DNA of 64,000 bases from an uncultured Bacteroides sp. (GTDB taxonomy: Bacteria > Bacteroidota > Bacteroidia > Bacteroidales > Bacteroidaceae), in NCBI RefSeq assembly GCF_963675905.1, contig NZ_OY780936.1, forward strand, positions 3,419,946-3,483,945, written 5' to 3'. Under the pieces are notes generated by a model. That model was not told the origin of the DNA. It made no database searches and saw only the letters and a list, made by a program, of their open reading frames with translations. Below, piece after piece: positions 36,184 through 47,735 of the stretch. The translations under genes were made by a program, and so were the position numbers. The stretch's first letter is position 1, and each line of letters begins with the position of its first letter.

Positions 36184-36281
36184 ACTTTTGTATTTCTGGT
36201 ATTATTATTTCAAAGCAAGTGTTTGTTATACAGGAAAGTATGTCTTACCCTAGAAAAAGTTGACTCTAAAAAGATCAAAAA

Positions 36282-36647
36282 ATGAGTCAATCAGAGAAAA
36301 GTCGTTGTCATTTCGATGACGCATTTAAAATGTCGGTGGTCGAAGAGGCCATCCAGGGTACACAGAGCAAGTATTCTTTGTGTCGTAAATATTCCATCGC
36401 CAGTACTAGCACATTACGAAGTTGGATTCGTATCTTTGCACCCGAATATGAATTGAATGATGGTTCCATGAAAAAGAGTCCCGTGAGTGAAAACGAAGAA
36501 ATCTTAGCTCTGCGTCGTATGCTTCAAGAAAAAGAATTGTGCTTGAAACGTGAAAAGATGCGTGCTGATTTCTTAGATGAAATGATCAACGTTGCTGAAG
36601 AGAAGTTTCAGCTTCCCATCCGAAAAAAAGCTGGCACCAAACGGTAA
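36282..36647 (+). CDS. IS3-family transposase OrfA
   Basis: 121-aa DNA-binding half of the transposase. A helix-turn-helix region lies at about 12-50 (HFDDAFKMSVVEEAIQG ... LCRKYSIASTSTLRSWIRIF). A leucine-zipper-like coiled coil follows (ENEEILALRRMLQEKELCLKR). The reading frame ends at 36647 after an A7 run that lets part of the ribosomes shift into OrfB. Confidence 0.9.
   Translation: MSQSEKSRCHFDDAFKMSVVEEAIQGTQSKYSLCRKYSIASTSTLRSWIRIFAPEYELNDGSMKKSPVSENEEILALRRMLQEKELCLKREKMRADFLDEMINVAEEKFQLPIRKKAGTKR
36623..36629 (+). promoter_or_regulatory. Programmed -1 frameshift site (A7 slippery heptamer)
   Basis: A-AAA-AAA followed by G, in phase with the OrfA codons CGA-AAA-AAA-GCT. A -1 slip enters the frame SWHQTVKQLHAKS and continues without a stop into OrfB, giving the OrfAB fusion that is the active enzyme in IS3 elements. 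Confidence 0.75.
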
Positions 36648-36679
36648 AACAGCTTCACGCAAAGAGCCCATCTTATCGG

Positions 36680-37558
36680 GTGGGTGACCTTTGCGCGCTG
36701 TTTGGTGCGTCCAAGCAAGCTTATTACAAACACGAAGACGAGAACATCGAACGCCTTGCCATCCCTCGTTTTATTATTGAGTTCGTAAGATATGTTCGAG
36801 AGGAGGATCCCGCTATCGGCGGCGAAAAGCTATGGGTGATGTATAGTCAATACTTCGGCAAACGTTATAGGATAGGTCGTGATGCTTTTTTAAAAGTGCT
36901 CAAGCGGTACAACCTGATGCTCAAGGCACCCAGAAAAAGTTGTCGTACCACAGACTCCACCCACGACTTGCCGACCTACCCCAATCTAATTAAGGATTTG
37001 GCTATCACCCGTTCTAACCAAGTCTGGGTTAGTGATATTACCTATATCCGCTTGCGGGAAGACGATTTCTGTTTTCTCTCCTTGGTGACAGATGCGTACG
37101 ACCATGAAATCGTAGGTGCTTACGTCGGCCCTACGCTAGCCACTGTCCACACCATAGAAGCCCTTAAACAGGCTTGCAAGAAGAGAAACATACAAAATAC
37201 AGAAGGGCTGACTCATCATTCGGACCGAGGGGTGCAGTATGCCAGCTACATGTACGTAAATGAACTGAAACAAAAAGGAATAAGGATTAGTATGACGGAA
37301 AATGGAGACCCTAAAGAAAATGCAATAGCGGAAAGAGTAAATGGGATTCTCAAAAAGGAATTCCTTAACCAATATTCCTTTGAAACAATCGAACTGGTTA
37401 GGCAAGCAGTGCAGCAGGCTGTCACATTCTACAATACTAGACGCCCCCACAGGAGTTTGGATATGCTTACTCCACAACAGGCTTTTGGAAAGACCGGAAT
37501 AATCAAGAAACGATGGACAAGTTATAAAGATAAATACAGAGAAGCTTGCCTGCAATAA
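36680..37558 (+). CDS. IS3-family transposase OrfB (DDE integrase)
   Basis: 292-aa catalytic half, usually made only as the OrfAB fusion after -1 frameshifting upstream. The open frame extends back to the slippery site at 36623, before this ATG. DDE core: first Asp in QVWVSDITYIRL, second in LTHHSDRGVQYAS, Glu in ENAIAERVNGILKKEFL. The N-terminal helical part and the FYNTRRPHRSLDMLTP end are typical of IS150-like members. It appears intact. Confidence 0.93.
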   Translation: MGDLCALFGASKQAYYKHEDENIERLAIPRFIIEFVRYVREEDPAIGGEKLWVMYSQYFGKRYRIGRDAFLKVLKRYNLMLKAPRKSCRTTDSTHDLPTYPNLIKDLAITRSNQVWVSDITYIRLREDDFCFLSLVTDAYDHEIVGAYVGPTLATVHTIEALKQACKKRNIQNTEGLTHHSDRGVQYASYMYVNELKQKGIRISMTENGDPKENAIAERVNGILKKEFLNQYSFETIELVRQAVQQAVTFYNTRRPHRSLDMLTPQQAFGKTGIIKKRWTSYKDKYREACLQ

Positions 37559-37821
37559 AGAGAAAAAACTATCTTTGCTCTTGAAAGCAAAAAAATGATT
37601 CTACTAAGAATCCGAACGAGATAGGGAGAGAAGGCTGCGGACCTCTCTTCTCGTTTAAATATTTCAAGCTAAAGAAGACCTATCAACCACAATTAGGGAC
37701 TATAGAGAATTTAGTCAACCGAAGTTAGAGATTTAAATATAACCAGTCAACTCCAAAAAGGGGGAAGAACAAATTTAATCAACCTTTATCAGGTTATTAC
37801 AGTAGCTCGGAAATGTATGCC

Positions 37822-37905
37822 TCCACCCGGGTGTAACAAGAGCGTCCACCCGGGTGTACCTTTTGTGTAGATCCGGGTGTAGGAGGTCTGTACACCCGGG
37901 TGGAC
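37822..37905. repeat. Intergenic CACCCGGGTG palindrome cluster (element F)
   Basis: Four units around the palindrome CACCCGGGTG: 37822-37835, 37844-37859, a degenerate unit near 37872-37882, and 37890-37905. Units two and four are perfect 16-bp inverse copies (GTCCACCCGGGTGTAC). A TTTTGTAAAGGTG word about 45 bp further on matches the TTTTGTAAAG flank of elements B and C. GC-rich in an otherwise AT-rich gap just after the IS. No gene from 37559 to 37999. Confidence 0.85.
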
Positions 37906-37999
37906 GGAGAATTCTATAATTGTAAAAAGCAAAAAAAGTATGGAGCGTTTTGTAAAGGTGCGGTTGCTCTGTAATAACCTGCTTAATACTATTATTGAA

Positions 38000-38392
38000 T
38001 TATGATTTTTCCTCAATTATAAAATAATCATCCCATTTGAATACTAAGTAATAGAGTTGTGGTATAAAATATAGAAATACAACTATAAAATTTGTGAAGT
38101 AAGAAAAATAAGATAAAAAAGAAAGACAGAACAATGTGATAAGGCTTACTAAGAATATAATATGGAAAAGATTTGGAATTCTAGTTCTAATAATAATATC
38201 TTCATAATTATCTAACTTGATGTTCTTTTTTGCTTTGGCCCAATCAAGTTCTACATTAATTTCATATGTCCCTGAAGGCAAATTCATTATTTTTTTTTCA
38301 CCTCTTTTTAGATAAAAGATCTCTTTATTAATCATGATCTTGTACTTTCTAAATATGAAATCATTTTTTCTTGCAATTCGTAATTCTGGCAT
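38000..38392 (-). CDS. Hypothetical membrane protein
   Basis: 130-aa protein of unknown function. The first 78 residues are soluble and strand-rich (FYLKRGEKKIMNLPSGTYEI resembles PEGA-like or small beta-sandwich modules). Two membrane helices follow (about 80-98 LFHIIFLVSLITLFCLSF and 100-118). The end KWDDYFIIEEKS is acidic. It lies 84 bp downstream of a double-glycine peptide gene on the same strand and might act in immunity to or transport of that peptide; inference from position only. Confidence 0.6.
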   Translation of the reverse strand: MPELRIARKNDFIFRKYKIMINKEIFYLKRGEKKIMNLPSGTYEINVELDWAKAKKNIKLDNYEDIIIRTRIPNLFHIIFLVSLITLFCLSFLSYFSYFTNFIVVFLYFIPQLYYLVFKWDDYFIIEEKS

Positions 38393-38476
38393 AATTTTTT
38401 AATCTTTTTATATTTACATTCTTGACTTTTAATCAAGAATGTAATATGTTTAGAATAGATAAAGTAGCTCCTTGTG

Positions 38477-38689
38477 TTAGTCTCTATAAGCACAAATTGC
38501 TTCTCCTATAGCTAGTCCAATGGCTGTAGGACCACATATTGCTAGTCCTACAGGGCCAAAACAGCTTCCAATTCCAGCGATAACATTGATTGTAGCAAGT
38601 GCTTGTCTTCTTGTCCATCCGCCATTCACTTCATTCATTTCTTTAATATTCATTTCTTGCAAACCTGCAATATTTTCTAATGATTTCAT
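38477..38689 (-). CDS. Double-glycine leader peptide, class II bacteriocin-like
   Basis: 70-aa precursor. The 24-residue leader ends EMNEVNGG, fitting the GG-leader pattern (hydrophobic at -4, -7 and -12) cut by peptidase-containing ABC exporters. The 46-residue core begins WTRRQALATINVIAGIG. It is hydrophobic and Gly/Ala-rich with GPVGLAICGPTAIGLAIG, several G-x3-G-type spacings, and three Cys (core positions 19, 28 and 42). This resembles class IIb pore-forming bacteriocins. Its upstream region shares a block with that of the CPBP gene at 42.6 kb. No exporter is nearby in this window. Confidence 0.75.
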   Translation of the reverse strand: MKSLENIAGLQEMNIKEMNEVNGGWTRRQALATINVIAGIGSCFGPVGLAICGPTAIGLAIGEAICAYRD

Positions 38690-38704
38690 AATTCTAATGT
38701 TTTA

Positions 38705-38731
38705 CAAAATTAATAATTAAATTTATTCAAA
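38705..38731 (-). promoter_or_regulatory. Promoter region shared with the CPBP operon
   Basis: On the minus strand TTTG (38728-38731), a 15-bp spacer, and TAATTTTG (38705-38712), 16 bp before the peptide ATG. The surrounding roughly 30 bp recur at 42615-42645, where the -7 box TAATTTTG is also kept. A spacer of 15 is short, so the -33 element is doubtful. Confidence 0.45.
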
Positions 38732-38840
38732 TGCAATATAAACCAGTTTTGTTTTGCATTTACAAAGTAACGTTTCTTCAGTGAAATAAAATTGCACTCT
38801 ACAATATTTTATTTCACATTTTTCATCAACAAAAGAAAAC

Positions 38841-38960
38841 TAGTCCTCTTTGCTAACATACTTCTTGTCTACAATGTATAGTTCAGAAATAATATCAATA
38901 GTTGTTTCTGATTTATCTTTCTTAAGCCATCAACAAAATCGTTCTTTCCATTATAAATGT
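38841..38960 (-). pseudogene. Mosaic of fragments copied from two neighbouring genes
   Basis: Bases 38841-38924 match 42821-42904 with one mismatch; that is coding sequence of the 374-aa secreted protein (KSETAIDIISELYIVDKKYV region). Directly joined, 38925-38960 match 41950-41985 with one mismatch, which is part of the 55-aa membrane protein gene (NGKNDFVDG region). The two sources lie about 0.9 kb apart, so this is a rearranged remnant with no intact reading frame. Confidence 0.8.
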
Positions 38961-39004
38961 TTATGTATCATTATACTTTTCATGTCGAATTCAAATTATC
39001 TAGA

Positions 39005-39158
39005 TCATTTATGTCGACTGATTTCACTTTTAGCAGCCTTAATTCGAGCATCTCTTGATGCTGCATCTTTTCCTACTTTGGTAAGATAGATAAGAGGCTA
39101 TCAAAATAAAAAATAGGAATGCCATAAACGTTGAAAAATATTTTTTATCAGATTTCAT
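39005..39158 (-). pseudogene. Frameshifted small membrane-protein gene
   Basis: From ATG 39158 the frame gives MKSDKKYFSTFMAFLFFILI, a basic start and one membrane helix, then stops after 39 codons. The +1 frame continues in a protein-like way, LTKVGKDAASRDARIKAAKS, to a TGA at 39005-39007. A single indel, perhaps in the T/A-rich run, would restore a protein of about 50 aa. It resembles in size and topology the 55-aa protein at 41.9-42.1 kb. Confidence 0.5.
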
Positions 39159-39231
39159 ATTTATTTTATTATAGCAACTTGTTATAAATAAATTCATAAC
39201 AAGTTTCATGGTGATATACTAATAATAATGC

Positions 39232-39336
39232 CTAAAAATAGAGATTGATTCCAATAGCTATTCCAGCTAAGAAGCCTATGGAGAAAAAGAACATGATGGT
39301 ACAGAAGCAAATATTACTTTTAATAAACTCTTTCAT
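39232..39336 (-). CDS. 34-aa single-pass membrane peptide
   Basis: Below usual annotation size. The product MKEFIKSNICFCTIMFFF... is basic at the start, then almost wholly hydrophobic with SIGFLAGIAIGINLYF at the end (Gly zipper-like spacing). Its ATG overlaps the stop of the preceding 90-aa gene (ATGA), which supports real, coupled translation. Function unknown; it may be an accessory or immunity peptide of the island. Confidence 0.5.
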   Translation of the reverse strand: MKEFIKSNICFCTIMFFFSIGFLAGIAIGINLYF

Positions 39337-39605
39337 GGTTGATAAATTTCAGATAAATAGTAGAAACATAATATAACTATTGTTGCGGCGCAAATGCCCA
39401 GAATTGAAAAGTATAGAGTATTTGTTTTCTTCTTCAATAAAAAGTAGGCGAGATTGGTTATTAGAAGCATTACAAGAGGAAATGCAAATAGAAAATATAA
39501 ACTGTTATGGAATATCATTCCCAGAGTAATAAGGGTGATGCAAGGAATAGTTGCAGTGATTGAACCAAGTGTAATGAATTTAGTCTGTTGAGTAGTAGTT
39601 CTCAT
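39333..39605 (-). CDS. Small polytopic membrane protein
   Basis: 90-aa protein with about three membrane helices: residues 10-33 (FITLGSITATIPCITLITLG), 36-57 and 64-84. A short basic LLKKKTNTL loop separates the last two. No family recognised. It starts 24 bp after the end of the 645-aa gene and is coupled to the 34-aa peptide, so it is part of the CPBP-led operon. Confidence 0.6.
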   Translation of the reverse strand: MRTTTQQTKFITLGSITATIPCITLITLGMIFHNSLYFLFAFPLVMLLITNLAYFLLKKKTNTLYFSILGICAATIVILCFYYLSEIYQP

Positions 39606-39629
39606 TTGTTTTTCTGTTGAAGGTATTGG

Positions 39630-41567
39630 TCAAAGCAAGGTTATTGTAATTCCCACCTGAAAACGGTTAATCTTCAATGAATTCCAAATATCCAGTTCGC
39701 TGTTGTTAATTATAGACTGATTGTTCTCAAAACCAGCTGTTGCGCTCTTTCTTGAGACGAAGAATCCGCTTTTTTCTTTTATTCTGAATGCTTTTTTTGT
39801 GTCTAGAGGTATATTATAAGTGCCAAATAACTTTAGACTGGCAAATCGGCTAATCCTTTTTGAGAAAGCGATTTGAGGAGCAATTGTTTTTTGCTGCAAT
39901 CCATAAGCAAATGCAATCCTTCTTGCATCAATCTTCTCCCCTCCAAAGTGAAATGAAGTGGAATTACTATATGTTCCCAGATTTACGAAATAATCTTTAT
40001 AGCAGTATGCAATAGAAGGTTCAAAGAATAGTGGTCGACCGGTACTTTTTAAGTTCTTTCTGTATTGAATGCCGTAATAATGTTCGTTCGATGAAATGTC
40101 ACTGTTAAAGTAATCATCTGTTCCTTTCATAAAGATACTAAGATTTTTACTCAGGCGATATCCTATCAGGCTTTGAATAACTACCGCTTCTTTTCTGGAA
40201 GGCTGTTGCTTATTAATAGTAAACGGTTGCAATCCGCCTCCTGGATTAAAGATAAAATTATAATTGTTGCTGTTGAGGCTTACAGTATTAAAAGACAAGC
40301 CATACTCAAAGTTTAGTTTCAGTAGAATCTTTAGTAACTTATTTGTAAATACTAGCTTCTTAGAACTTTTCGTGTTGAAAATCTGTTCTGCGGTTGATGT
40401 TGAAAATTGGAGTTCACTCTTTTGAGGTAATGCACTGTTCAGCTCATTATAGTCTGTCCAACCTTTTTTGTTGTAATCATCAGTCTTTTGCATAAACGGC
40501 TCAAAGAATCCTAGCCTCCTTTCAAAAGGTATAGGTTTAACAGAATCTAATTTTATATCGGTAGTAATATAATCGATAGTAGAATTAATATTTTTCCCGT
40601 TCAATAGATTTTTTTCAATGTTATTATTTTCATATTGCTTAAGGTAATATTTATCATTCTGCTTTTCATATGTAATTTTTGAATGAGACTCAACTCCTTT
40701 AATCCTAAGATTTGTAGTCTGATAATTCTCAAGATCTCTCTCAAAATAAACATAAGCCAAGCTTTGTTTATCTATTAGTGTTCTTCCTTTGAACACTGTT
40801 GAGTCACTTTTTGCGCTGGTATAAGAGATATCATAAAATTCATGTCCTTCAGATTCCTTTATGCCGTTGAATTTATATTTGTATGCTTTGAAATGCTGAG
40901 GATTAATGTAATCTTTTCGTTGTAAAACGGCATCACCATTTATAGGAACAAATGGCCCGCCATAATACAGAAGTCCACTGCTGCTGATCTCTTTTTTTCT
41001 TGATTTCAGAATTTCAACTTCTCCGGGTTCTGCTTTCTTTTTGATATAAGAGTCTTTGTAGATAGAAAGCATTGCTTCCGCAAGATATATTTGCTGATAC
41101 TTTTCGTCTTGCACACTTTCTCTATAAAAACCTGTATATAATGATGGCTTTGCAGGATAGTTTTCCGGTATTCTAAGATATGCCTTTCGCAAAAGAGTAA
41201 GTAGCGTACTGTCTGGCATAATATAGATCTCCTTCAAAGTATATGCTTGGGGCAGCAGCTTTATATTTAATGACGAACTACCAGAAATGAGTATACTGTC
41301 TTTTTGAAAGCCGACTCCGGTGAAATACAGATACTTGTTTGTGCAGGAGGAGGGGAGACTGATTCTGAAATATCCTTTGCTGTCGGAGATTGTTCCAATC
41401 TTGGGACGTTTGGTAAAAACGCTGATATTAGTTGCTTTTGTTCCTTTCTCTGCATTGGTTATTGTGCCGGAGATAGTGATTGATTGTGCACAGATATTGG
41501 TATATCCACAGATAGTTATATAAAGTAAAAAGAGTATTGTACGTTTTATAGAGATACGGTCATTCAT
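39630..41567 (-). CDS. Carboxypeptidase-regulatory-like domain protein with predicted barrel
   Basis: 645 aa from ATG 41567 (MNDRISIKRTILFLLYITIC signal, cut near NICAQ). An in-frame ATG at 41639 would overlap the preceding gene and hide the signal. N-terminal CarboxypepD_reg-like module (about 30-110, ITISGTITNAEKGTKATNIS). Then a region with YTGFYRESVQDEKYQQIYLAEA and GRTLIDKQSLAYVYFERDL, typical of large Bacteroidetes surface proteins of the DUF5686 kind. The C-terminal part alternates strands and ends RFQVGITITLL, as outer-membrane barrels do. Possibly a surface component of the peptide system; role not known. Confidence 0.7.
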   Translation of the reverse strand: MNDRISIKRTILFLLYITICGYTNICAQSITISGTITNAEKGTKATNISVFTKRPKIGTISDSKGYFRISLPSSCTNKYLYFTGVGFQKDSILISGSSSLNIKLLPQAYTLKEIYIMPDSTLLTLLRKAYLRIPENYPAKPSLYTGFYRESVQDEKYQQIYLAEAMLSIYKDSYIKKKAEPGEVEILKSRKKEISSSGLLYYGGPFVPINGDAVLQRKDYINPQHFKAYKYKFNGIKESEGHEFYDISYTSAKSDSTVFKGRTLIDKQSLAYVYFERDLENYQTTNLRIKGVESHSKITYEKQNDKYYLKQYENNNIEKNLLNGKNINSTIDYITTDIKLDSVKPIPFERRLGFFEPFMQKTDDYNKKGWTDYNELNSALPQKSELQFSTSTAEQIFNTKSSKKLVFTNKLLKILLKLNFEYGLSFNTVSLNSNNYNFIFNPGGGLQPFTINKQQPSRKEAVVIQSLIGYRLSKNLSIFMKGTDDYFNSDISSNEHYYGIQYRKNLKSTGRPLFFEPSIAYCYKDYFVNLGTYSNSTSFHFGGEKIDARRIAFAYGLQQKTIAPQIAFSKRISRFASLKLFGTYNIPLDTKKAFRIKEKSGFFVSRKSATAGFENNQSIINNSELDIWNSLKINRFQVGITITLL

Positions 41568-41575
41568 CACGTTTC

Positions 41576-41908
41576 TTACTTGTATTTTAGCTTTCTGGTA
41601 ATGCTCCATGTTATTAATGCTCCAACAATAGTTGCACAAGCTTTATAGATCCAAATATTATCTGATAAATGGATACCTAGTGCTATTGATATTATAACTC
41701 CAAAGGTACTTCCGCAAATAATACTTAATGGATTAATTTTATCGGGCTTCAGAAAGAATACAGCATAGCAGAAAATCATTGGAACGATAAAGAGATAATC
41801 TCCCCATTCTGTTATATTATGTTTGAAGTTGGGGATGAAGTAGAATTCCCACACAATAAGTAAAATTGTAAGAGTAAATCCGATTAGTAAAAATAGTTTC
41901 TTTTTCAT
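41576..41908 (-). CDS. Hypothetical membrane protein (four predicted helices)
   Basis: 110 aa: MKKKLFLLIGFTLTILLIVW, then about 37-53 (LFIVPMIFCYAVFFL), 60-79 (LSIICGSTFGVIISIALGI) and 87-104, ending in a basic SITRKLKYK tail. Unrecognised family. It starts 3 bp after the 55-aa gene and ends 8 bp before the 645-aa gene, so it is tightly placed in the operon. Confidence 0.6.
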   Translation of the reverse strand: MKKKLFLLIGFTLTILLIVWEFYFIPNFKHNITEWGDYLFIVPMIFCYAVFFLKPDKINPLSIICGSTFGVIISIALGIHLSDNIWIYKACATIVGALITWSITRKLKYK

Positions 41909-41911
41909 GTG

Positions 41912-42079
41912 TTATTTCATTTTCAGACCTTCCTGATAACCTTTATTGAAGCCATCAACAAAATCGTTCTTTCCGTTATAAATGTCAATGATGAATAACC
42001 CGATTATAATTGTTATCATAATTCCAGCTAAGATAGTAATAATCTTTTTTCTTTGTTTTTTTGTCTTAATTTTGTTCAT
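41912..42079 (-). CDS. 55-aa single-pass membrane protein
   Basis: Basic N-terminus MNKIKTKKQRKK, one membrane helix (IITILAGIMITIIIGLFII), then a short outer tail DIYNGKNDFVDGFNKGYQEG. The tail pattern FVDGFNKGY recalls the G-rich ends of small bacteriocin-associated proteins. Part of the gene is duplicated in the remnant at 38.9 kb. It lies 13 bp after the CPBP gene and 3 bp before the next, inside an operon; small size kept it from standard calling. Confidence 0.6.
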   Translation of the reverse strand: MNKIKTKKQRKKIITILAGIMITIIIGLFIIDIYNGKNDFVDGFNKGYQEGLKMK

Positions 42080-42092
42080 GATCTTTAAATAT

Positions 42093-42581
42093 TTAGTTTG
42101 TTAACTTGAATATTAGTGCTATAATATTGCATATTAAATGAATTGAATAGACGCTTAAAAAAGCATCATTCTTCTTTTGTCGAACAATATACGCATACAT
42201 AAGTATCATGCCTGCAGGTATAACTGATATTATGTAAATAATATTATATGCATGAGAGAGCCCGAAAATTAATCCTCCGATAAGTACTATTCTATTGTTA
42301 TAATCTCGGAAGAAAGGGATAGTATTCAATAAATGATATATTCCAGCTTGAAAAATGATTGTCTCAATTATAGGGGCAAACAAAATACCCAAAATTAAGA
42401 TATCAAGCCAACTTTGATTGTTGAAATTGATAATATATCCCATTTTTTTAGATATTATAACAGCCGAGTGTGCTAAAAGTGTAGAACTAATTTTGCAAAT
42501 CAAAGCCAATAATGTGATGAAATAGAAGAAATTCAATTTCTCTATTTTGTTTGATAAAGCTTCTTGTATTACTTTAAGCAT
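42093..42581 (-). CDS. CPBP (Abi-like) family membrane protein
   Basis: 162-aa polytopic protein related to the CAAX-protease/bacteriocin-processing family. Motif one reads IETIIFQ, where the canonical form is EExxxR; motif two is FGLSH (F-x3-H); motif three HLICN. The loss of one Glu and of Arg suggests altered or absent protease activity. In Gram-positive bacteria such proteins often give immunity to class II bacteriocins, fitting the nearby GG-leader peptides. First gene of the operon running to 39.2 kb. Confidence 0.8.
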   Translation of the reverse strand: MLKVIQEALSNKIEKLNFFYFITLLALICKISSTLLAHSAVIISKKMGYIINFNNQSWLDILILGILFAPIIETIIFQAGIYHLLNTIPFFRDYNNRIVLIGGLIFGLSHAYNIIYIISVIPAGMILMYAYIVRQKKNDAFLSVYSIHLICNIIALIFKLTN

Positions 42582-42616
42582 TGCATTTGAAATATTTTTT
42601 AGAATGAAATATTTTG

Positions 42617-42624
42617 CAAAATTA
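42617..42624 (-). promoter_or_regulatory. -7 box of the CPBP-led operon
   Basis: TAATTTTG on the minus strand, 36 bp before the CPBP ATG, within a block (42615-42645) resembling the promoter region of the peptide gene at 38.7 kb. Confidence 0.5.
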
Positions 42625-42678
42625 CTAATTAAATTTATTCTTATGCAAGAAAACTAATCCTCTTTATCCTAATTCACT

Positions 42679-43803
42679 TTATTCTTTAATCAACTTATTG
42701 TCAAGTAGCAATTTGATTGGCTCACTTAACTGTGGAATATTATATCTAGATAAATCATTCCAATATTCATTAGAGAATACAGAAGAATACGATTGATCAG
42801 AAACTTTCTTTTTCTTTGAGTAGTCCTCTTTGCTAACATACTTCTTGTCTACAATGTATAGTTCAGAAATAATATCAATAGCTGTTTCTGATTTATCTTT
42901 CTTATGTTTAAAGAAAAGCTTTCGATATTCTTTTTTACTTTCCAAATCTGATTTAGAAAATGAAGAGATTTCTCCACTCCAATAGTTTTCGGAAATATTA
43001 ATATTTGTGATTCTTGAGGTGTAATTAAATAGATTATGTATCTCTTCATTTTGTGGAGCGATTAAATCTACATAAATGTTTATAAGCCCTCTGGAACTAT
43101 CAGGCCTGAGTGTTCCGACCACTGAGTCAGATCTAAGAATCAATTTTGCTCCTTGATATTCTTTGGTGGTGTATTGTTTTCCTAACTCATCAAGGATTGA
43201 ACCTTGGTTTAGATTGGGAATTACAGTTCCGTTTATATTAACCATGAATTTCCTTGTTTTTTGCTGCTCTATCAATTCTTTATTAAGGAAATATCTGCTG
43301 TTTAATACTATTCTTTTGATATTTTTCCCTTTTTTAGGAATATAAAATTCTACAATTCCGTCCTTATAATATTTAGTAATGCTGTCTTCTAATTGATAAC
43401 ATCTATAATACCCAGTAATAACGATATAATCATAAACTTTTTTATTTTCAGGTATTGCGGTAACTTCTGGTAATAAGTTCTGGCGTTTATTCATTTTTAA
43501 AGTATCAGCATCTTTAAAACTCTCCACTGATATATTGTAATTATTATAAGAAAGGTGTTGTATAATCAACTTGTTGCTTTTTTCTTTTAAGCTTTTTAGT
43601 ATTTTATTTTTGTTGATATTTCCATTAATGTTAGATAAACCAACTAACTTCCCATCACTAGAAATGATATTAGCAAAAGGAATGCCCCTTCCTGTTAGGC
43701 TATCTTTTAAAAATAGGTCTTGGCTGGATATTGGTTGTATGCAGAATAGGGACAGTGCCAGGCAATAAAGCTTTATGATTTTATTTATATTAGTATATTT
43801 CAC
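42679..43803 (-). CDS. Secreted protein with carboxypeptidase-regulatory-like N-terminus
   Basis: 374 aa. The signal peptide ends near ISSQ (residue 27). A degenerate CarboxypepD_reg-like module follows (about 28-105, LTGRGIPFANIISSDGKLVGL). The rest is of unknown fold, with VYDYIVITGYYRCYQLEDS and KYVSKEDYSKKKKVSDQSYS. It resembles the N-terminal half of the 645-aa neighbour in general plan. An 84-bp piece of its 3' part is duplicated at 38.84 kb. Located between two peptide-related units on the same strand. Confidence 0.6.
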   Translation of the reverse strand: MKYTNINKIIKLYCLALSLFCIQPISSQDLFLKDSLTGRGIPFANIISSDGKLVGLSNINGNINKNKILKSLKEKSNKLIIQHLSYNNYNISVESFKDADTLKMNKRQNLLPEVTAIPENKKVYDYIVITGYYRCYQLEDSITKYYKDGIVEFYIPKKGKNIKRIVLNSRYFLNKELIEQQKTRKFMVNINGTVIPNLNQGSILDELGKQYTTKEYQGAKLILRSDSVVGTLRPDSSRGLINIYVDLIAPQNEEIHNLFNYTSRITNINISENYWSGEISSFSKSDLESKKEYRKLFFKHKKDKSETAIDIISELYIVDKKYVSKEDYSKKKKVSDQSYSSVFSNEYWNDLSRYNIPQLSEPIKLLLDNKLIKE

Positions 43804-43841
43804 GGATATAGTTGAATTTCTTAATTATAACGTTTATTTAA

Positions 43842-43876
43842 TTGCCTAAAGACTTTTTTTTATAGTCTTTAGGCAA
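43842..43876 (-). terminator. Terminator after the 37-aa GG-peptide gene
   Basis: Perfect 13-bp stem TTGCCTAAAGACT (43842-43854) and AGTCTTTAGGCAA (43864-43876), loop TTTTTTTAT, 77 bp beyond the peptide stop. Confidence 0.7.
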
Positions 43877-43952
43877 CATTGATAAACCTAACCAGTTTAT
43901 GTAAGATTTAGAAATAAGAAATGTAAAGTAAAGTTTTAAAAGAGCACTTCTA

Positions 43953-44066
43953 TTAAATACATATCCATTCAATAGAAATTTTCCCGTTAGAATCTTTTCG
44001 ATAAACAGCGATGTATCTTCTTCCCCCGTTTGTATTAATCATCTCTTCTTTTGTTAGTTCTGTCAT
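43953..44066 (-). CDS. 37-aa double-glycine leader peptide
   Basis: From ATG 44066 the precursor is MTELTKEEMINTNGG, a short GG leader, then a 22-residue core RRYIAVYRKDSNGKISIEW plus ICI. The in-frame codons just upstream read KNIKALK after an ATA, so a non-ATG start could lengthen the leader. It is divergent from the histidine kinase gene across a shared control region, the typical place for a signal or inducer peptide. The charged, small core is less pore-like than the others, which suits a pheromone; inference. Confidence 0.6.
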   Translation of the reverse strand: MTELTKEEMINTNGGRRYIAVYRKDSNGKISIEWICI

Positions 44067-44095
44067 TTTTAGAGCTTTTATGTTTTTTATATCTG

Positions 44096-44170
44096 CGAAA
44101 GTAGATTTTCTTAAAGGAAAATAATGTTATCGGAATGTTATACAATCTTATCTGATTGTTATTATCTTTG
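44096..44170. promoter_or_regulatory. Divergent control region with TGTTA boxes at 11-bp spacing
   Basis: Between the 37-aa peptide (minus) and kinase (plus). TGTTA at 44125-44129 and 44136-44140 are 11 bp apart; a third is at 44157-44161. On + the -7 box TATCTTTG is at 44163-44170. On - a one-mismatch box TACTTTCG is at 44096-44103. The paired boxes sit about 21-22 bp from each -7 box, where an OmpR/PhoB-type activator would bind. Confidence 0.55.
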
Positions 44171-44186
44171 TAGCAAATTCTTGTTT

Positions 44187-45509
44187 ATGAAGGGTAAATA
44201 TACTAAACTGGCAACGGGAATTGCCATTCTTTTTATTTTATTGTTGCAAGGCATGTGGCTTTATAATGCTTATAAACTAGCCGGTGCTGAAATTGTAAAT
44301 AAAGTGAATGATTGTTTAAATGAATCGGTTCAAAAAGATATATTCAGGAGACTTGATTCATCATTGAGCCGTTTACCAAAAGAATCAACTATTAGTACGG
44401 ATACTCTATCTGGTGGAAATTCAGCTTTTATTCCTGGAAATGTAGATTTGCAAGAATCTTTGGCTCGTTTTAAGCAACCGTTAATGCTACGTGGATTAAA
44501 CCGGATATTGTCTGCATCTCTTTGCCGAAAAGAAATATTTATTGAATATTCTTTATGCAGAGTAAATACTAAAACAGGAGAAACTTTGGAATCAACAGTT
44601 CCCGGTTTTAATAAAAGTAATGTGCTTCGCACAAAGATTTTTCCAGTTAGGAAATCTGAGCCAATAGGGGTTCAGGTTTTATTTGAGCCTCCATATAAAG
44701 CAATCTTTCAACAGATGACTTTGCTTCTTGTCGGCTCTGCTCTGATGATTGTAATTGTTGCTTTTTGTGTTTTCTATCAAATCAGAATCATTATTCGTCA
44801 GAATAAAATAGCTCAGTTGAGGCAGGACTTCACTTATGCTATGATACATGATATGAAAACTCCTCTTTCTTCTATTTATATGGGTATTAATATGCTAAAA
44901 AGTGGAAGGCTTGACAATAAACCTGATAAGAAAGAGAAATACTTTGATATATGTATGCAGGAGAGTGAGCATTTGCTTGCAATAACGAATCGTATTCTGA
45001 CTATTGCAAAACTTGAACAAGGTGAACTGAACTTAAATAAACAGATCATTGATTTACCAAAACTGATAAATTCTTTAATAGATAAGTTTTCAATAAATCA
45101 GTCAAAAGAGGTTGTGTTCACTACTTCTTTTTCTGAGAACCTGATTTCTGTTGTTGCTGATTATGATTATCTGAAAGAAGCTATTTCTAATTTGATAGAC
45201 AATTCCATAAAATATTCTCATGCAAAAGTATGTATCAATATTGATTGCATAAATGATGGCAACTGTATTTTGATTAAGGTTAAAGATAACGGATTTGGTA
45301 TAGCTCATAAAGACCAGACAAAGATATTTGAGAAGTTTGAAAGAGCTGCAGCTACAGGAAAGAAAAAGGGTGCAACCGGATTTGGTTTGGGATTGAATTA
45401 TGTACTTAGGGTTATTACAGCGCATGGAGGCAATGTGATAGTATCGAGTATAGAAGGAGAATTTAGCGAATTTACTATTAGTTTACCAATGTTAATAGAG
45501 GAAATATGA
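44187..45509 (+). CDS. Sensor histidine kinase
   Basis: 440-aa inner-membrane kinase from ATG 44187 (MKGKYTKLATGIAILFILLL); an in-frame ATG at 44124 would overlap the TGTTA boxes. Topology: helix at about 8-26, a periplasmic sensing part of about 150 residues, and a second helix at about 175-198 (LLVGSALMIVIVAFCVFY). No HAMP is evident. Phospho-acceptor His221 lies in MIHDMKTPLSSIYMG. The ATPase has NLIDNSIKYSH, DNGFGIAHKD, FEKFERA and GFGLGLNYV. Its stop overlaps the regulator start by 4 bp. Confidence 0.95.
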   Translation: MKGKYTKLATGIAILFILLLQGMWLYNAYKLAGAEIVNKVNDCLNESVQKDIFRRLDSSLSRLPKESTISTDTLSGGNSAFIPGNVDLQESLARFKQPLMLRGLNRILSASLCRKEIFIEYSLCRVNTKTGETLESTVPGFNKSNVLRTKIFPVRKSEPIGVQVLFEPPYKAIFQQMTLLLVGSALMIVIVAFCVFYQIRIIIRQNKIAQLRQDFTYAMIHDMKTPLSSIYMGINMLKSGRLDNKPDKKEKYFDICMQESEHLLAITNRILTIAKLEQGELNLNKQIIDLPKLINSLIDKFSINQSKEVVFTTSFSENLISVVADYDYLKEAISNLIDNSIKYSHAKVCINIDCINDGNCILIKVKDNGFGIAHKDQTKIFEKFERAAATGKKKGATGFGLGLNYVLRVITAHGGNVIVSSIEGEFSEFTISLPMLIEEI

Positions 45510-46192
45510 TTAAGCTTTTGTTGGTAGAAGATGATGAAAATCTAAATTACATTATAAAAGGTAGTTTAGAGGATATGATTGGTGGGTATGAAGTTCTGTC
45601 TGTTTTGAATGGTGAAGAGGGATTAAAAGTATGGAGAGACTTTAAACCTGATATTATTGTTTCAGATGTAGAAATGCCTGTGATGGATGGCAATGAAATG
45701 GTAAGGGCAATACGTGAAATCGACGGGGATATTCCTATTGTATTCGCTACAGCCAAAGGTTCTCCCAAAGATGTTACAATAGGTTATCACTCGGGAGTGA
45801 ACAACTATATTAAGAAACCATTTTTGCCCGAAGAGCTGGATGCTCATATTCAGGCATTGCTGAAACTGAAGAATGGCTCTCGAACAAGAAGTGAGAGCAA
45901 TATCTTCAAGCTTGGATCTTATTATTTTGATTCTGATCATTTTTTACTTAAAACTGGCGAGCAATGCTCCACTCTGACAGCCCGCGAAGCAAAGATTCTT
46001 CAGATGCTTTGTAGGAGTAAAGGAGAAATAGTTAAGCGTGACGTGATTCTTGAAAATATATGGGGAACAAATGATTTTTATACATCTCGCAGCTTGGACG
46101 TTTTTATAAAGAAGTTACGTACTTATCTTTCTGCTGATACTTCCGTTTCTATACGTACTGTCAAAGGAGTGGGACTTATTCTCAATGATTAG
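45506..46192 (+). CDS. Response regulator, OmpR/PhoB family
   Basis: 228 aa. The receiver domain begins MIKLLLVEDDENL, with the phospho-acceptor Asp54 in IIVSDVEMPVMDG and conserved T/K positions in FATAKGSPKD and IKKPF. The winged-helix output domain (about 140-228) has LTAREAKILQMLCRSKGEIV, LENIWG, SRSLDVFIKKLR and RTVKGVGL. This output class binds direct repeats about 11 bp apart, like the TGTTA pairs at 44.13 and 47.42 kb. The last 216 bp are duplicated at 47.5 kb. Confidence 0.95.
   Translation: MIKLLLVEDDENLNYIIKGSLEDMIGGYEVLSVLNGEEGLKVWRDFKPDIIVSDVEMPVMDGNEMVRAIREIDGDIPIVFATAKGSPKDVTIGYHSGVNNYIKKPFLPEELDAHIQALLKLKNGSRTRSESNIFKLGSYYFDSDHFLLKTGEQCSTLTAREAKILQMLCRSKGEIVKRDVILENIWGTNDFYTSRSLDVFIKKLRTYLSADTSVSIRTVKGVGLILND
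45977..46192 (+). repeat. 216-bp direct repeat, copy 1 (3' end of the response regulator)
   Basis: Matches 47499-47714 over the full 216 bp without gaps and with about eight base differences, ending exactly at the TAG stop. The two copies bracket a 1.3-kb block containing the CPBP gene, the two tandem GG-peptides and their control region. Confidence 0.9.
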
Positions 46193-46320
46193 AAATATTG
46201 TGTATACAATTTTTACAGTGTGGTGACAAACTTCAAATAAAACTTCTTTTATATGTCTCGTGCTAAAATTTGCCCTCCAAAAAACTGCTAAAGGATTTCA
46301 GAAAGGATGTCTTTGTTACT

Positions 46321-46330
46321 CCCCCCCCCC
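46321..46330. repeat. C10 homopolymer tract
   Basis: Ten consecutive C within a strongly AT-rich gap between the response regulator and the CPBP gene. No convincing ORF covers 46193-46429. Such tracts are slippage-prone. Confidence 0.8.
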
Positions 46331-46429
46331 TTCAAAAACTTCCTTTATGTTTTATTCGGGCAACAGTTGTTTAAAATGGAATCTGATAAATGAGGCCAGT
46401 ATTGCTAGAAATACTCTTGATAATAAATA

Positions 46430-46900
46430 CTATAGACTGAGTAATTTTGATATTTCTGCTATAAAATTTAAGAGTAGATGAATACTGGCAACTAATTTGA
46501 ATCCGCTAATTAAACCTTCTTTTATATATTCAGCATATGCAAATGTAATCGCTAAATATAAACCAATAACTCCTGCATATATGGTATATGCAATATTGTA
46601 TTGATGCTGAAAAGTAAATAGTATTGTTGAAATTAAAATAAGAAATGTAATTGAATACTTGTTGATCTTTAATATATTTAAAGAAAATGGAATTTTAAAA
46701 ACAATATATTGGAATATGAATGTCTCAATAAAAGGTGCAATTAAGACTGAAAGTATAAAGAATGTGTAATCTTTTTCTTTGTCAAAAGTATTAAAGTTTC
46801 CAAATATTAATTTTAATAATTGACTTGTAATATATGCTAATAATATTCCTATTAAAATCAACAAACTATATGTTTTTACTTTTTTATTCATTAGTTTCAA
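46430..46900 (-). CDS. CPBP (Abi-like) family membrane protein, second copy
   Basis: 156-aa polytopic protein with the same altered motifs as the copy at 42.1-42.6 kb: IETFIFQ in place of EExxxR, FTFQH, and HLLLN. Hydrophobic helices occupy most of the chain. Sequence identity to the other copy is modest away from the motifs. It lies 65 bp downstream of the tandem GG-peptide genes, after a hairpin, on the same strand, so is a good candidate for their immunity protein; inference from family and position. Confidence 0.78.
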   Translation of the reverse strand: MKLMNKKVKTYSLLILIGILLAYITSQLLKLIFGNFNTFDKEKDYTFFILSVLIAPFIETFIFQYIVFKIPFSLNILKINKYSITFLILISTILFTFQHQYNIAYTIYAGVIGLYLAITFAYAEYIKEGLISGFKLVASIHLLLNFIAEISKLLSL

Positions 46901-46906
46901 AATTCA

Positions 46907-46944
46907 AAGCTAAAAAGAGAAAATATGATATCTCTTTTTAGCTT
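46907..46944 (-). terminator. Hairpin between the tandem peptide genes and the CPBP gene
   Basis: Perfect 14-bp stem AAGCTAAAAAGAGA (46907-46920) and TCTCTTTTTAGCTT (46931-46944) with a 10-base loop, just after the second peptide stop. It may attenuate, giving more peptide than CPBP transcript. Confidence 0.7.
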
Positions 46945-46965
46945 AGTTTATTATGTTTGAATTAG

Positions 46966-47139
46966 TTAGCCCTTTATAGCAGAAGCACCTTCTCCTGCTG
47001 CTATAAGAACTGAAAGCAAGCACCATATAACATCATAAGCTAGAGATGTTTTTAATGTTGGACTTCCTCCTTCTATACTACTAAGTTGCGAATCTGTCAG
47101 AACTTCGATATCTATTTTTTTTAAAGAATCATTATTCAT
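46966..47139 (-). CDS. 57-aa double-glycine leader peptide (second of a pair)
   Basis: Below usual calling size. The 25-residue leader begins MNNDSLKKIDIEVLTDSQ and ends LSSIEGG. The 32-residue core begins SPTLKTSLAYDVIWCLLSVL and ends IAAGEGASAIKG, amphipathic with a GEGAS G-x-x-x motif. Leader and core lengths equal those of the peptide encoded 11 bp upstream, suggesting a two-component class IIb bacteriocin. A hairpin follows, then the CPBP gene. Confidence 0.7.
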   Translation of the reverse strand: MNNDSLKKIDIEVLTDSQLSSIEGGSPTLKTSLAYDVIWCLLSVLIAAGEGASAIKG

Positions 47140-47150
47140 ACTTTTATATT

Positions 47151-47324
47151 TTATTTGTAATTATACTCATGCACTGCATCATAAGCAGCTTTTTTGATGT
47201 CACTCCATTCTGATATAAGGTAAGCCGCTATCACTTCTGGCCACCAACCTCCTCCATGAACTTCTAATAATTGTTTAGAATCCATTTCTTTAACTCCGCA
47301 ATTTTCTAAATTGAAATCATTCAT
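47151..47324 (-). CDS. 57-aa double-glycine leader peptide (first of a pair)
   Basis: From ATG 47324 the 25-residue leader MNDFNLENCGVKEMDSKQLL ends EVHGG. The 32-residue core begins GWWPEVIAAYLISEWSDIKK, with an aromatic start and an amphipathic helix, and ends YDAVHEYNYK. An in-frame ATG at 47366 would add 14 residues and is less likely. The leader pattern (LENCGVKEM) is that of Bacteroidetes GG-type bacteriocin precursors. It forms a tandem with the following 57-mer. Confidence 0.75.
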   Translation of the reverse strand: MNDFNLENCGVKEMDSKQLLEVHGGGWWPEVIAAYLISEWSDIKKAAYDAVHEYNYK

Positions 47325-47395
47325 AATTGATAAATTATTATTAATTAAATAAATTTTCTGTTTCATATTGTAATATGAAGCTTTAATTCAGATTA

Positions 47396-47435
47396 CAAAT
47401 AAATAATAACTTGCGAACTTGTTAAGTTATTGTTA
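47396..47435. promoter_or_regulatory. TGTTA boxes upstream of the tandem peptide operon
   Basis: Direct repeats TTGTTAAGTTA at 47419-47429 and 47430-47440, so TGTTA words at 47420 and 47431, exactly 11 bp apart. On the minus strand a one-mismatch -7-like box TTTATTTG lies at 47396-47403, 16 bp away. The arrangement parallels the kinase/peptide control region at 44.1 kb. A further TGTTA at 47457 precedes the regulator fragment. Confidence 0.5.
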
Positions 47436-47471
47436 AGTTATATAAGGTTATTAAAATGTTATTTTTAGAAT

Positions 47472-47714
47472 ATGACTTATAACACTTTTATGATTTTAAC
47501 AGTCCGTGAAACAAAGATTCTTCAGATGCTTTGTGAGAGTAAAGGAGAAATAGTTAAGCGTGACGTGATTCTTGAAAATATATGGGGAACAAATGATTTT
47601 TATACATCTCGCAGTTTGGACGTTTTTATAAAGAAGTTACGTACTTATCTTTCTGCTGATACTTCTGTTTCTATACGTACAGTCAAAGGAGTGGGACTTA
47701 TTCTCAATGATTAG
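47472..47714 (+). pseudogene. Response-regulator DNA-binding-domain fragment (duplicate)
   Basis: An 80-codon ORF starting with nine unrelated residues (MTYNTFMIL), then TVRETKILQMLCESKGEIVK and the rest of a winged-helix output domain. It is nearly identical to the C-terminus of the regulator ending at 46192. There is no receiver domain. Bases 47499-47714 are copy 2 of the 216-bp repeat. Most differences are silent, so the frame is kept. It may be a remnant, or a small protein able to occupy the same DNA sites. Confidence 0.75.
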
Positions 47715-47735
47715 AATTTGCTGATACTAAAACAA

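Follow-up and report, generated by a model that had tools for sequence, protein, structure and literature searches.

Peptide quorum sensing is textbook knowledge in Gram-positive bacteria. For the pneumococcal blp system, it has been reported that blpAB is intact in 23.5 % of the genomes, that little decay is apparent in the bacteriocin genes, and that ComAB can export BlpC (PMC4860687). In Bacteroidales, the described bacteroidetocins are encoded in a four-gene region with a transmembrane protein, a thiol oxidoreductase, and a peptidase-containing ABC transporter (PCAT) (PMC6671954). A mining study of the same order lists one cluster (BGC5, radical-SAM type) with a kinase and a regulator and without a PCAT, and proposes that signalling proteins in the vicinity might point to a signalling function of the peptides, which is the nearest printed idea that we found (PMC10352776). 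In the sources accessible to our literature search, whose coverage is thin for subscription papers and preprints, the peptide-kinase family treated below is not described for Bacteroidales. Here, we analyze a stretch of 64,000 nucleotides (the window) from an uncultured Bacteroides sp. whose genome is a single contig of 4,166,832 bases, and within it a variable island of 9.8 kb (window positions 37926-47728) between mraZ/rsmH and an Fe-S (hdr-like) operon. In our view, the island is rather probably a pheromone-controlled class II-type peptide locus of Bacteroidales in an exporter-less form, orphaned by exporter loss. Our wider proposal is that several Bacteroidales genera run a peptide quorum sensing of their own, in which double-glycine (GG) peptides (mostly with cores of 16-25 residues), each encoded divergently from its own kinase, drive class II-type bacteriocin regulons via TAAC-N7-TAAC-N22-TAnnTTTG, the window being a naturally exporter-less listener; for this proposal, we see the arguments as evenly balanced.

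The flanks of the island align at 93-96 % to those of B. luti (L026) and of the genome G026 (L027), and the contents between the flanks differ (here and below, G-numbers denote genomes, G000 being that of the window and G081 the one that we take to be B. luti DSM 26991, and L-numbers denote loci). The flanks align at 92.9-94.3 % to G081 and place the host near B. luti within Bacteroides. The island contains a sensor histidine kinase gene (44187-45509, + strand) and an OmpR-type response regulator gene (45506-46192, + strand), with clear HisKA and HATPase_c domains in the former and Response_reg and Trans_reg_C domains in the latter. The kinase frame is open from 44124, but its start is probably at 44187 because a promoter box overlaps the longer frame. 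Divergently from the kinase, 43953-44066 (- strand) encodes the candidate pheromone precursor, which has a GG leader of 15 amino acids and a core of 22 with the motif SNGK. Three further GG precursors are encoded on the - strand, namely 38477-38689 (leader of 24 and core of 46 amino acids, the latter containing three Cys and a hydrophobic, Gly-rich stretch) and the neighbours 47151-47324 (frame extendable to 47366) and 46966-47139, both with a 25-residue leader and a 32-residue core and the first and second peptide of a pair.

All four precursors had been proposed in an initial annotation of the island, and their open reading frames (ORFs) were indeed recovered in place, on the - strand and with stop-free translations. 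They follow what we take to be the GG-leader pattern (hydrophobic residues at -4, -7, and -12, glycines at -2/-1) and have short cores, with Thr at -4 in 43953. The leader model TIGR01847 gave four matches at E <= 10 in the whole genome, three of which lie in the island (38477, 46966, and 43953). At its curated cut-off of 15.7 bits, 38477 (16.7) and 46966 (15.8) pass and 43953 fails in the genome scan, while in the protein scan 46966 alone passes (17.1 bits; 38477, 14.9); 47151 is not among the genome matches and shows weak matches to BlpC/ComC leader models. The kinase/regulator pair, the small hydrophobic ORFs, and two CPBP proteins (38.1 and 24.8 bits at a PF02517 cut-off of 22.4) named in the same annotation were likewise found.

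The best relatives of the kinase occur in B. luti and G026 (60-61 %) and in G108 (51 %), in each case beside HlyD and PCAT and with a divergent GG peptide. In G108, the genes are arranged as regulator, kinase, divergent GG peptide, HlyD, PCAT, TolC, CPBP, and two GG peptides; the PCAT locus of B. luti lies on contig NZ_FQTV01000023.1. A contig scan with five PCATs, of which the best 80 of 357 matches were taken, gave 79 distinct Bacteroidota loci, and in 25 of these, the PCAT has a related kinase (33-61 %) no more than 6 kb away. At 24 of the 25, a short GG peptide is encoded on the strand opposite to the kinase, starting -14 to 394 nt from its 5' end, as judged by eye and with a hidden Markov model (HMM); 23 of the 24 peptides trained this HMM, and the count is thus not independent. 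With a fixed motif, 21 of 26 kinase genes tested positive (one of them, at L061, on a neighbouring, different peptide), as compared to six of 265 control ORFs from the same loci. When trained without the window and B. luti, the HMM found the window ORF with E=8.7e-6 among 14,638 small ORFs (next window ORF, 1.1), and the held-out peptides of L073, L034, and L035 were also matched. On cores only, these three and the window peptide rank 29, 20, 24, and 25 of 459; two further ORFs outside the training set are among the first 29.

The candidate pheromone cores comprise 16-25 residues (33 in L081), are rich in beta-formers, and carry N-G or D-G in mid-core, by eye, in 16 of the 24 divergent peptides and also in that of the window; they may fold into a hairpin. 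Ten relatives that were searched belong to no Pfam or NCBIfam family beyond leader-type matches, those above a cut-off being TIGR01847 (three) and L_biotic_typeA (one) only. For 43953 itself, there is no Pfam match and one NCBIfam match below the cut-off, and it stays below the curated ComC/BlpC cut-off. The exception among the 25 loci is L067 (Bacteroides sp. 519), where the related kinase lacks a recognizable divergent pheromone peptide; at L067 (3367-7057) as well as at L037 of the same genome, tandem kinase copies occur with no recognizable pheromone peptide. Two other GG-peptide families recur among L070, L074, L090, L092, and L098 as well as L061 and L101, one with cores that start with YAPP or YREP and end in W or Y, the second with cores of the type VAPGPxGExCTEHGLPDFL.

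A short GG peptide gene in a fixed place beside its kinase, as in peptide-pheromone three-component systems of the ComC/BlpC-like mode of action, is present here. Peptide-core and sensor similarity are correlated (r=0.31, permutation p=0.0002; n=20), also when the kinase domain is taken into account (r=0.20, p=0.009), and the divergent peptide may thus activate the kinase. Conceivably, the kinase could instead sense an envelope cue, and the GG peptide would be another effector that shares the promoter region of the regulator by chance; we regard this as doubtful, although worth keeping in mind, given that the divergent placement is near-fixed where a PCAT is present and that sensor and peptide covary beyond the kinase domain.

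A promoter grammar, TAAC-N7-TAAC-N22-TAnnTTTG, is common to the kinase loci. Its simple box, TAACA-N6-TAACA, is found in the 25 kinase loci 38 times in the direction of the exporter versus five times against it (1.4 expected on both strands) and in the other 54 PCAT loci 25 versus two times (3.1 expected). Of the 43 simple boxes, 27 lie no more than 250 nt ahead of a frame for a GG peptide, HlyD, PCAT, or a related gene, or no more than 60 nt into it. Within 70 nt behind the 38 forward boxes, 26 TAnnTTTG -7 elements occur, which start at 21 nt (19), 32 nt (6), or 47 nt (1); the spacing of 32 nt exceeds that of 21 nt by one repeat of 11 nt, and a single element can belong to several overlapping boxes. 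For the full grammar, the kinase loci give 42 forward copies and one backward copy, and the other 54 loci give 21 and none, all 21 within eight loci of which several are on short or cut contigs. G135 has, away from its PCAT locus, a second cluster with four exact matches (G135:C1:1611282-1622353).

In the window, two boxes with a -7 element match the grammar with one mismatch each, both on the - strand, one preceding 43953 (44096-44140) and the other preceding 47151 (47396-47440); 0.05 such matches are expected, and none of 100 shuffles reaches two. The whole genome holds five one-mismatch matches, and since a control with the reversed pattern also gives five, the three outside the island are probably due to chance; the case for the island pair rests on position and local expectation. 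An exact match is found once in G026 and once in B. luti, in both cases at the PCAT locus. No grammar with up to two mismatches was found at the promoters of 38477 (38696-38741, - strand; repeat D5) and of the CPBP gene 42093, which are 85 % alike. The description of the island as two-component-regulated in the initial annotation is thus supported for part of it only, namely for the two promoters with boxes.

A search of the whole genome with PF03412 revealed no C39 exporter, so that the absence of an adjacent one, as initially noted, extends to the entire genome. The single sub-threshold match (20.7 bits) covers 36 positions (model 2-37) in a short broken frame at G000:C1:3842859, behind an outer-membrane protein gene; this stump (L007:10887-11021) is perhaps the remnant of another PCAT locus, and a similar short C39 match exists in G001. 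The three PF00664 transporters of the genome have ABC_membrane and ABC_tran domains and none has C39. Lack of C39 is common in the genus, a match being present in 88 of 158 genomes with the remnant of the window's genome counted. The site at which G026 carries PCAT, HlyD, peptide, kinase, and regulator is empty in the window's genome, where the two sides align at 94.3 % and are joined at G000:C1:2265152/2265154. The window and G026 form the closest pair (95.6-96.0 %; B. luti, 92.9-94.6 % to either), and the PCAT locus sits between the same neighbours in G026 and B. luti, so that, for these three genomes, loss in the lineage of the window would be the shorter account. The kinase and regulator of the window, with a synonymous distance of about 2, are a different, older allele and hence arrived by another route.

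Nine loci were read from genomes with a kinase match and without a listed C39 match. Four of them show neither a grammar match nor a candidate pheromone, five have grammar matches, and in two of these five (G082 and G112) a GG peptide is encoded about 1.8 kb downstream of the match. Beside the kinase, none of the nine encodes a candidate pheromone, several of the genomes being incomplete. The pheromone thus accompanies the PCAT in this sample, and the window, which has the former and lacks the latter, looks like a recent loss. Three loci (L172, L173, and L174) carry the kinase/regulator/box module with no listed C39 match and with the box upstream of other genes; their regulator is perhaps used for something else.

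Profile searches with the two CPBP proteins gave matches in seven of 158 genus genomes and eight of 393 order genomes, the window's own genome included. The closest relative is G174, which lacks a C39 match and, at the same mraZ site and interspersed with IS66 and IS110-type transposases, encodes a GG peptide, CPBP 1 (42093-42581, - strand, in the window), and relatives of four further proteins of the - strand. These are a secreted CarboxypepD_reg protein, probably an outer-membrane barrel (39630-41639; PF13715 at 36.9 bits and above the cut-off; 87 % in G174, 79 % in G026), a CarboxypepD_reg-like secreted protein with a weak PF13715 match below the cut-off (42679-43803; 70 % in G174, 64 % in G026; in L083, a relative sits behind boxes), a hydrophobic, probably membrane-bound protein of 110 amino acids (41576-41908; 83 % in G174, 51 % in L029, 35 % in L067), and a probably single-TM (transmembrane) protein of 55 amino acids (41912-42079; relatives in G174 and G026, a fragment in B. 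luti). The two secreted surface-type proteins of the initial annotation are therefore present, the second less clearly than the first. G026 has four island genes at its mraZ site, and B. luti a CPBP gene and a piece of the 55-residue one. In the GG peptide of G174, the leader shares 21 of 24 residues with that of 38477 and the core is different; the 38477 leader is also similar in L023, L028, and L070, and its core has no other match at E <= 1 among 18,447 small ORFs. The initial annotation had named three observations that would jointly speak against its reading, namely no C39-type exporter in the genome, no transcripts or peptides, and no leader conservation in related genomes. The first holds in that no C39 exporter was found, but the leaders are conserved in relatives, so that the joint objection fails.

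Several repeats surround the peptide genes. A 218-nt copy (96 %) of the 3' end of the regulator flanks the 47151/46966 cassette (47499-47716, + strand; repeat D1), and 38477 adjoins an 84-nt copy (99 %) of the 3' part of gene 42679-43803 (38841-38924; repeat D2) as well as the copy of the CPBP promoter. Given these repeats, cassettes seem to have been captured or duplicated recently, thereby enlarging the island. The ORF 47472-47714 was considered as an independent gene and rejected, being the open frame of the regulator copy. That the whole island is a functionless relic whose decay is pending after exporter loss seems unlikely to us. The missing PCAT, the gene fragments and repeats within the island, and the one mismatch in both boxes would fit such a relic. 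However, none of the seven island genes with a full-length relative is truncated, the 96 % and 99 % repeats suggest recent remodelling, and the finite pairwise dN/dS values of the island genes are 0.05-0.54, with several dS values near saturation. In addition, the peptide, CPBP, and surface-protein genes are still open in G174, which likewise has no C39 match, at a dN/dS of 0.13-0.52 against the window, although this divergence may predate the exporter loss.

One box is followed by 47151, 46966, and the gene of CPBP 2 (46430-46900, - strand). In Hallella mizrahii (L104), 3 kb downstream of the PCAT, a peptide with a WSDIK core is followed after 12 nt by one with a TSFAYD core and then by a CPBP gene, and in G135 (L035) the peptide pair is also present, followed by a subtilase gene. 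The order of the peptides is the same in all three, and the single core matches are weak (core-only E among 18,447 ORFs of 0.0087 and 0.0012 for L104 and of 0.24 and 0.094 for L035). Adjacent GG precursors that recur as an ordered pair are characteristic of class IIb bacteriocins, and 47151/46966 accordingly resemble a two-peptide bacteriocin cassette, with CPBP 2 as partner. Taken together with the promoter grammar, the related kinases in GG-peptide/PCAT loci, and the candidate pheromone, this supports the initial reading in part, namely for the layout of a quorum-regulated class II bacteriocin locus, and the island peptides are putative bacteriocins.

Both CPBP proteins of the island exceed the PF02517 cut-off and carry the E/H/H/N motifs (ETxxFQ, FxxxH, and HxxxN in CPBP 1), the first motif being ETxxxQ and not EExxxR, which we take to be canonical. 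ETxxxQ, FxxxH, and HxxxN are invariant in nine of nine aligned CPBP proteins. In L104, the CPBP is of a different subclass (EExxFR), as would be expected somewhat more of an exchangeable immunity gene than of a dedicated protease. A GG ORF on the same strand within 1.5 kb accompanies 19 of 29 CPBP genes as compared to 110 of 574 control ORFs, some of the GG matches being due to chance. In a streptococcus, bacteriocin production requires the CAAX protease SilX, which may process the signal peptide; this suggests that such proteases can also serve signal maturation (PMC9298176), and for this reason we keep open the idea that the island works without a PCAT, its CPBP proteins cutting the GG leaders and another carrier exporting the peptides. 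Despite the retained catalytic residues, the GG pairing, the leader kept in exporter-less G174, and the GG peptides of G082 and G112, we consider this quite improbable, as complete loci hold CPBP alongside PCAT and hence not as a substitute, such CPBP occur in only 11 of the 79 PCAT loci with varying flanks, and immunity accounts equally well for the pairing.

In the pheromone-controlled locus that we favor, the complete form would operate through a PCAT-HlyD(-TolC) exporter that cuts and exports the short GG peptide encoded divergently from the kinase. The exported peptide would act as pheromone and be sensed by the extracytoplasmic domain of the kinase, whereupon the regulator would bind a pair of direct TAAC repeats at a distance of 11 bp, located upstream of a -7 element of the Bacteroidetes type, and would thereby activate the GG peptides, the exporter, and the CPBP partners. 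The window would have retained sensor, regulator, pheromone gene, boxes, the cassette (47151, 46966, and 46430), and the further peptide/CPBP set, its genome having lost the exporter. Such a strain could eavesdrop on the pheromone of its neighbours and be protected by CPBP and small membrane proteins, unable to send or attack by the usual route; most likely, it listens and may be protected without sending.

The remaining features of the island are small proteins of the - strand, namely one of 130 amino acids without a Pfam match that by eye is probably membrane-bound (38000-38392), a hydrophobic ORF of 34 amino acids (39232-39336), and a hydrophobic, probably membrane-bound protein of 90 amino acids (39333-39605). 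Between mraZ and the island lies an element that we take to be of the IS3 type (36241-37800; ORFs 36282-36647 and 36680-37558), which B. luti and G026 lack at this site. The left island edge (37801-37925) carries direct and inverted repeats, CACCCGGGTG, which are retained in both relatives.

With regard to known systems, the Sil/angicin region of Streptococcus anginosus with SilX resembles the island in gene content, by which the two are likened, in that peptide signal, bacteriocin, and CPBP-family protease occur in one region, and differs in being Gram-positive (PMC9298176). Secretion of the colicin V type relies on PCAT, HlyD, and TolC, and a relative of the island carries exactly this exporter set (L028/L060), whereas it was not found in the window's genome. 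The bacteroidetocins share with the island the order Bacteroidales, the GG leader, and class II-like peptides, and the accessible parts of their description mention neither pheromone nor two-component system (PMC6671954). The gene content of the island does not correspond to their four-gene region, and the cores of 47151, 46966, and 38477 have zero, one, and three Cys, respectively. Named species of our survey include B. luti, Phocaeicola massiliensis, Segatella copri, and Hoylesella timonensis, in which the peptide-kinase pairs together with the promoter code make peptide signalling directly testable with synthetic peptides. The pneumococcal blp system (BlpC, BlpHR, BlpAB, and CAAX-type immunity) is alike in its GG pheromone, kinase/regulator pair, GG bacteriocins that are thought to be paired, and CAAX/CPBP genes. 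It differs in being Gram-positive, whereas the window has an OmpR-type regulator with a promoter of the Bacteroidetes type, pheromone sequences that reach none of the BlpC/ComC cut-offs, and an exporter that is missing instead of truncated in situ. In blp, too, the exporter is often broken while the peptides stay (PMC4860687), and the window adds an example of signal and CPBP parts that persist where the exporter is gone, a situation shared with many pneumococcal blp loci.

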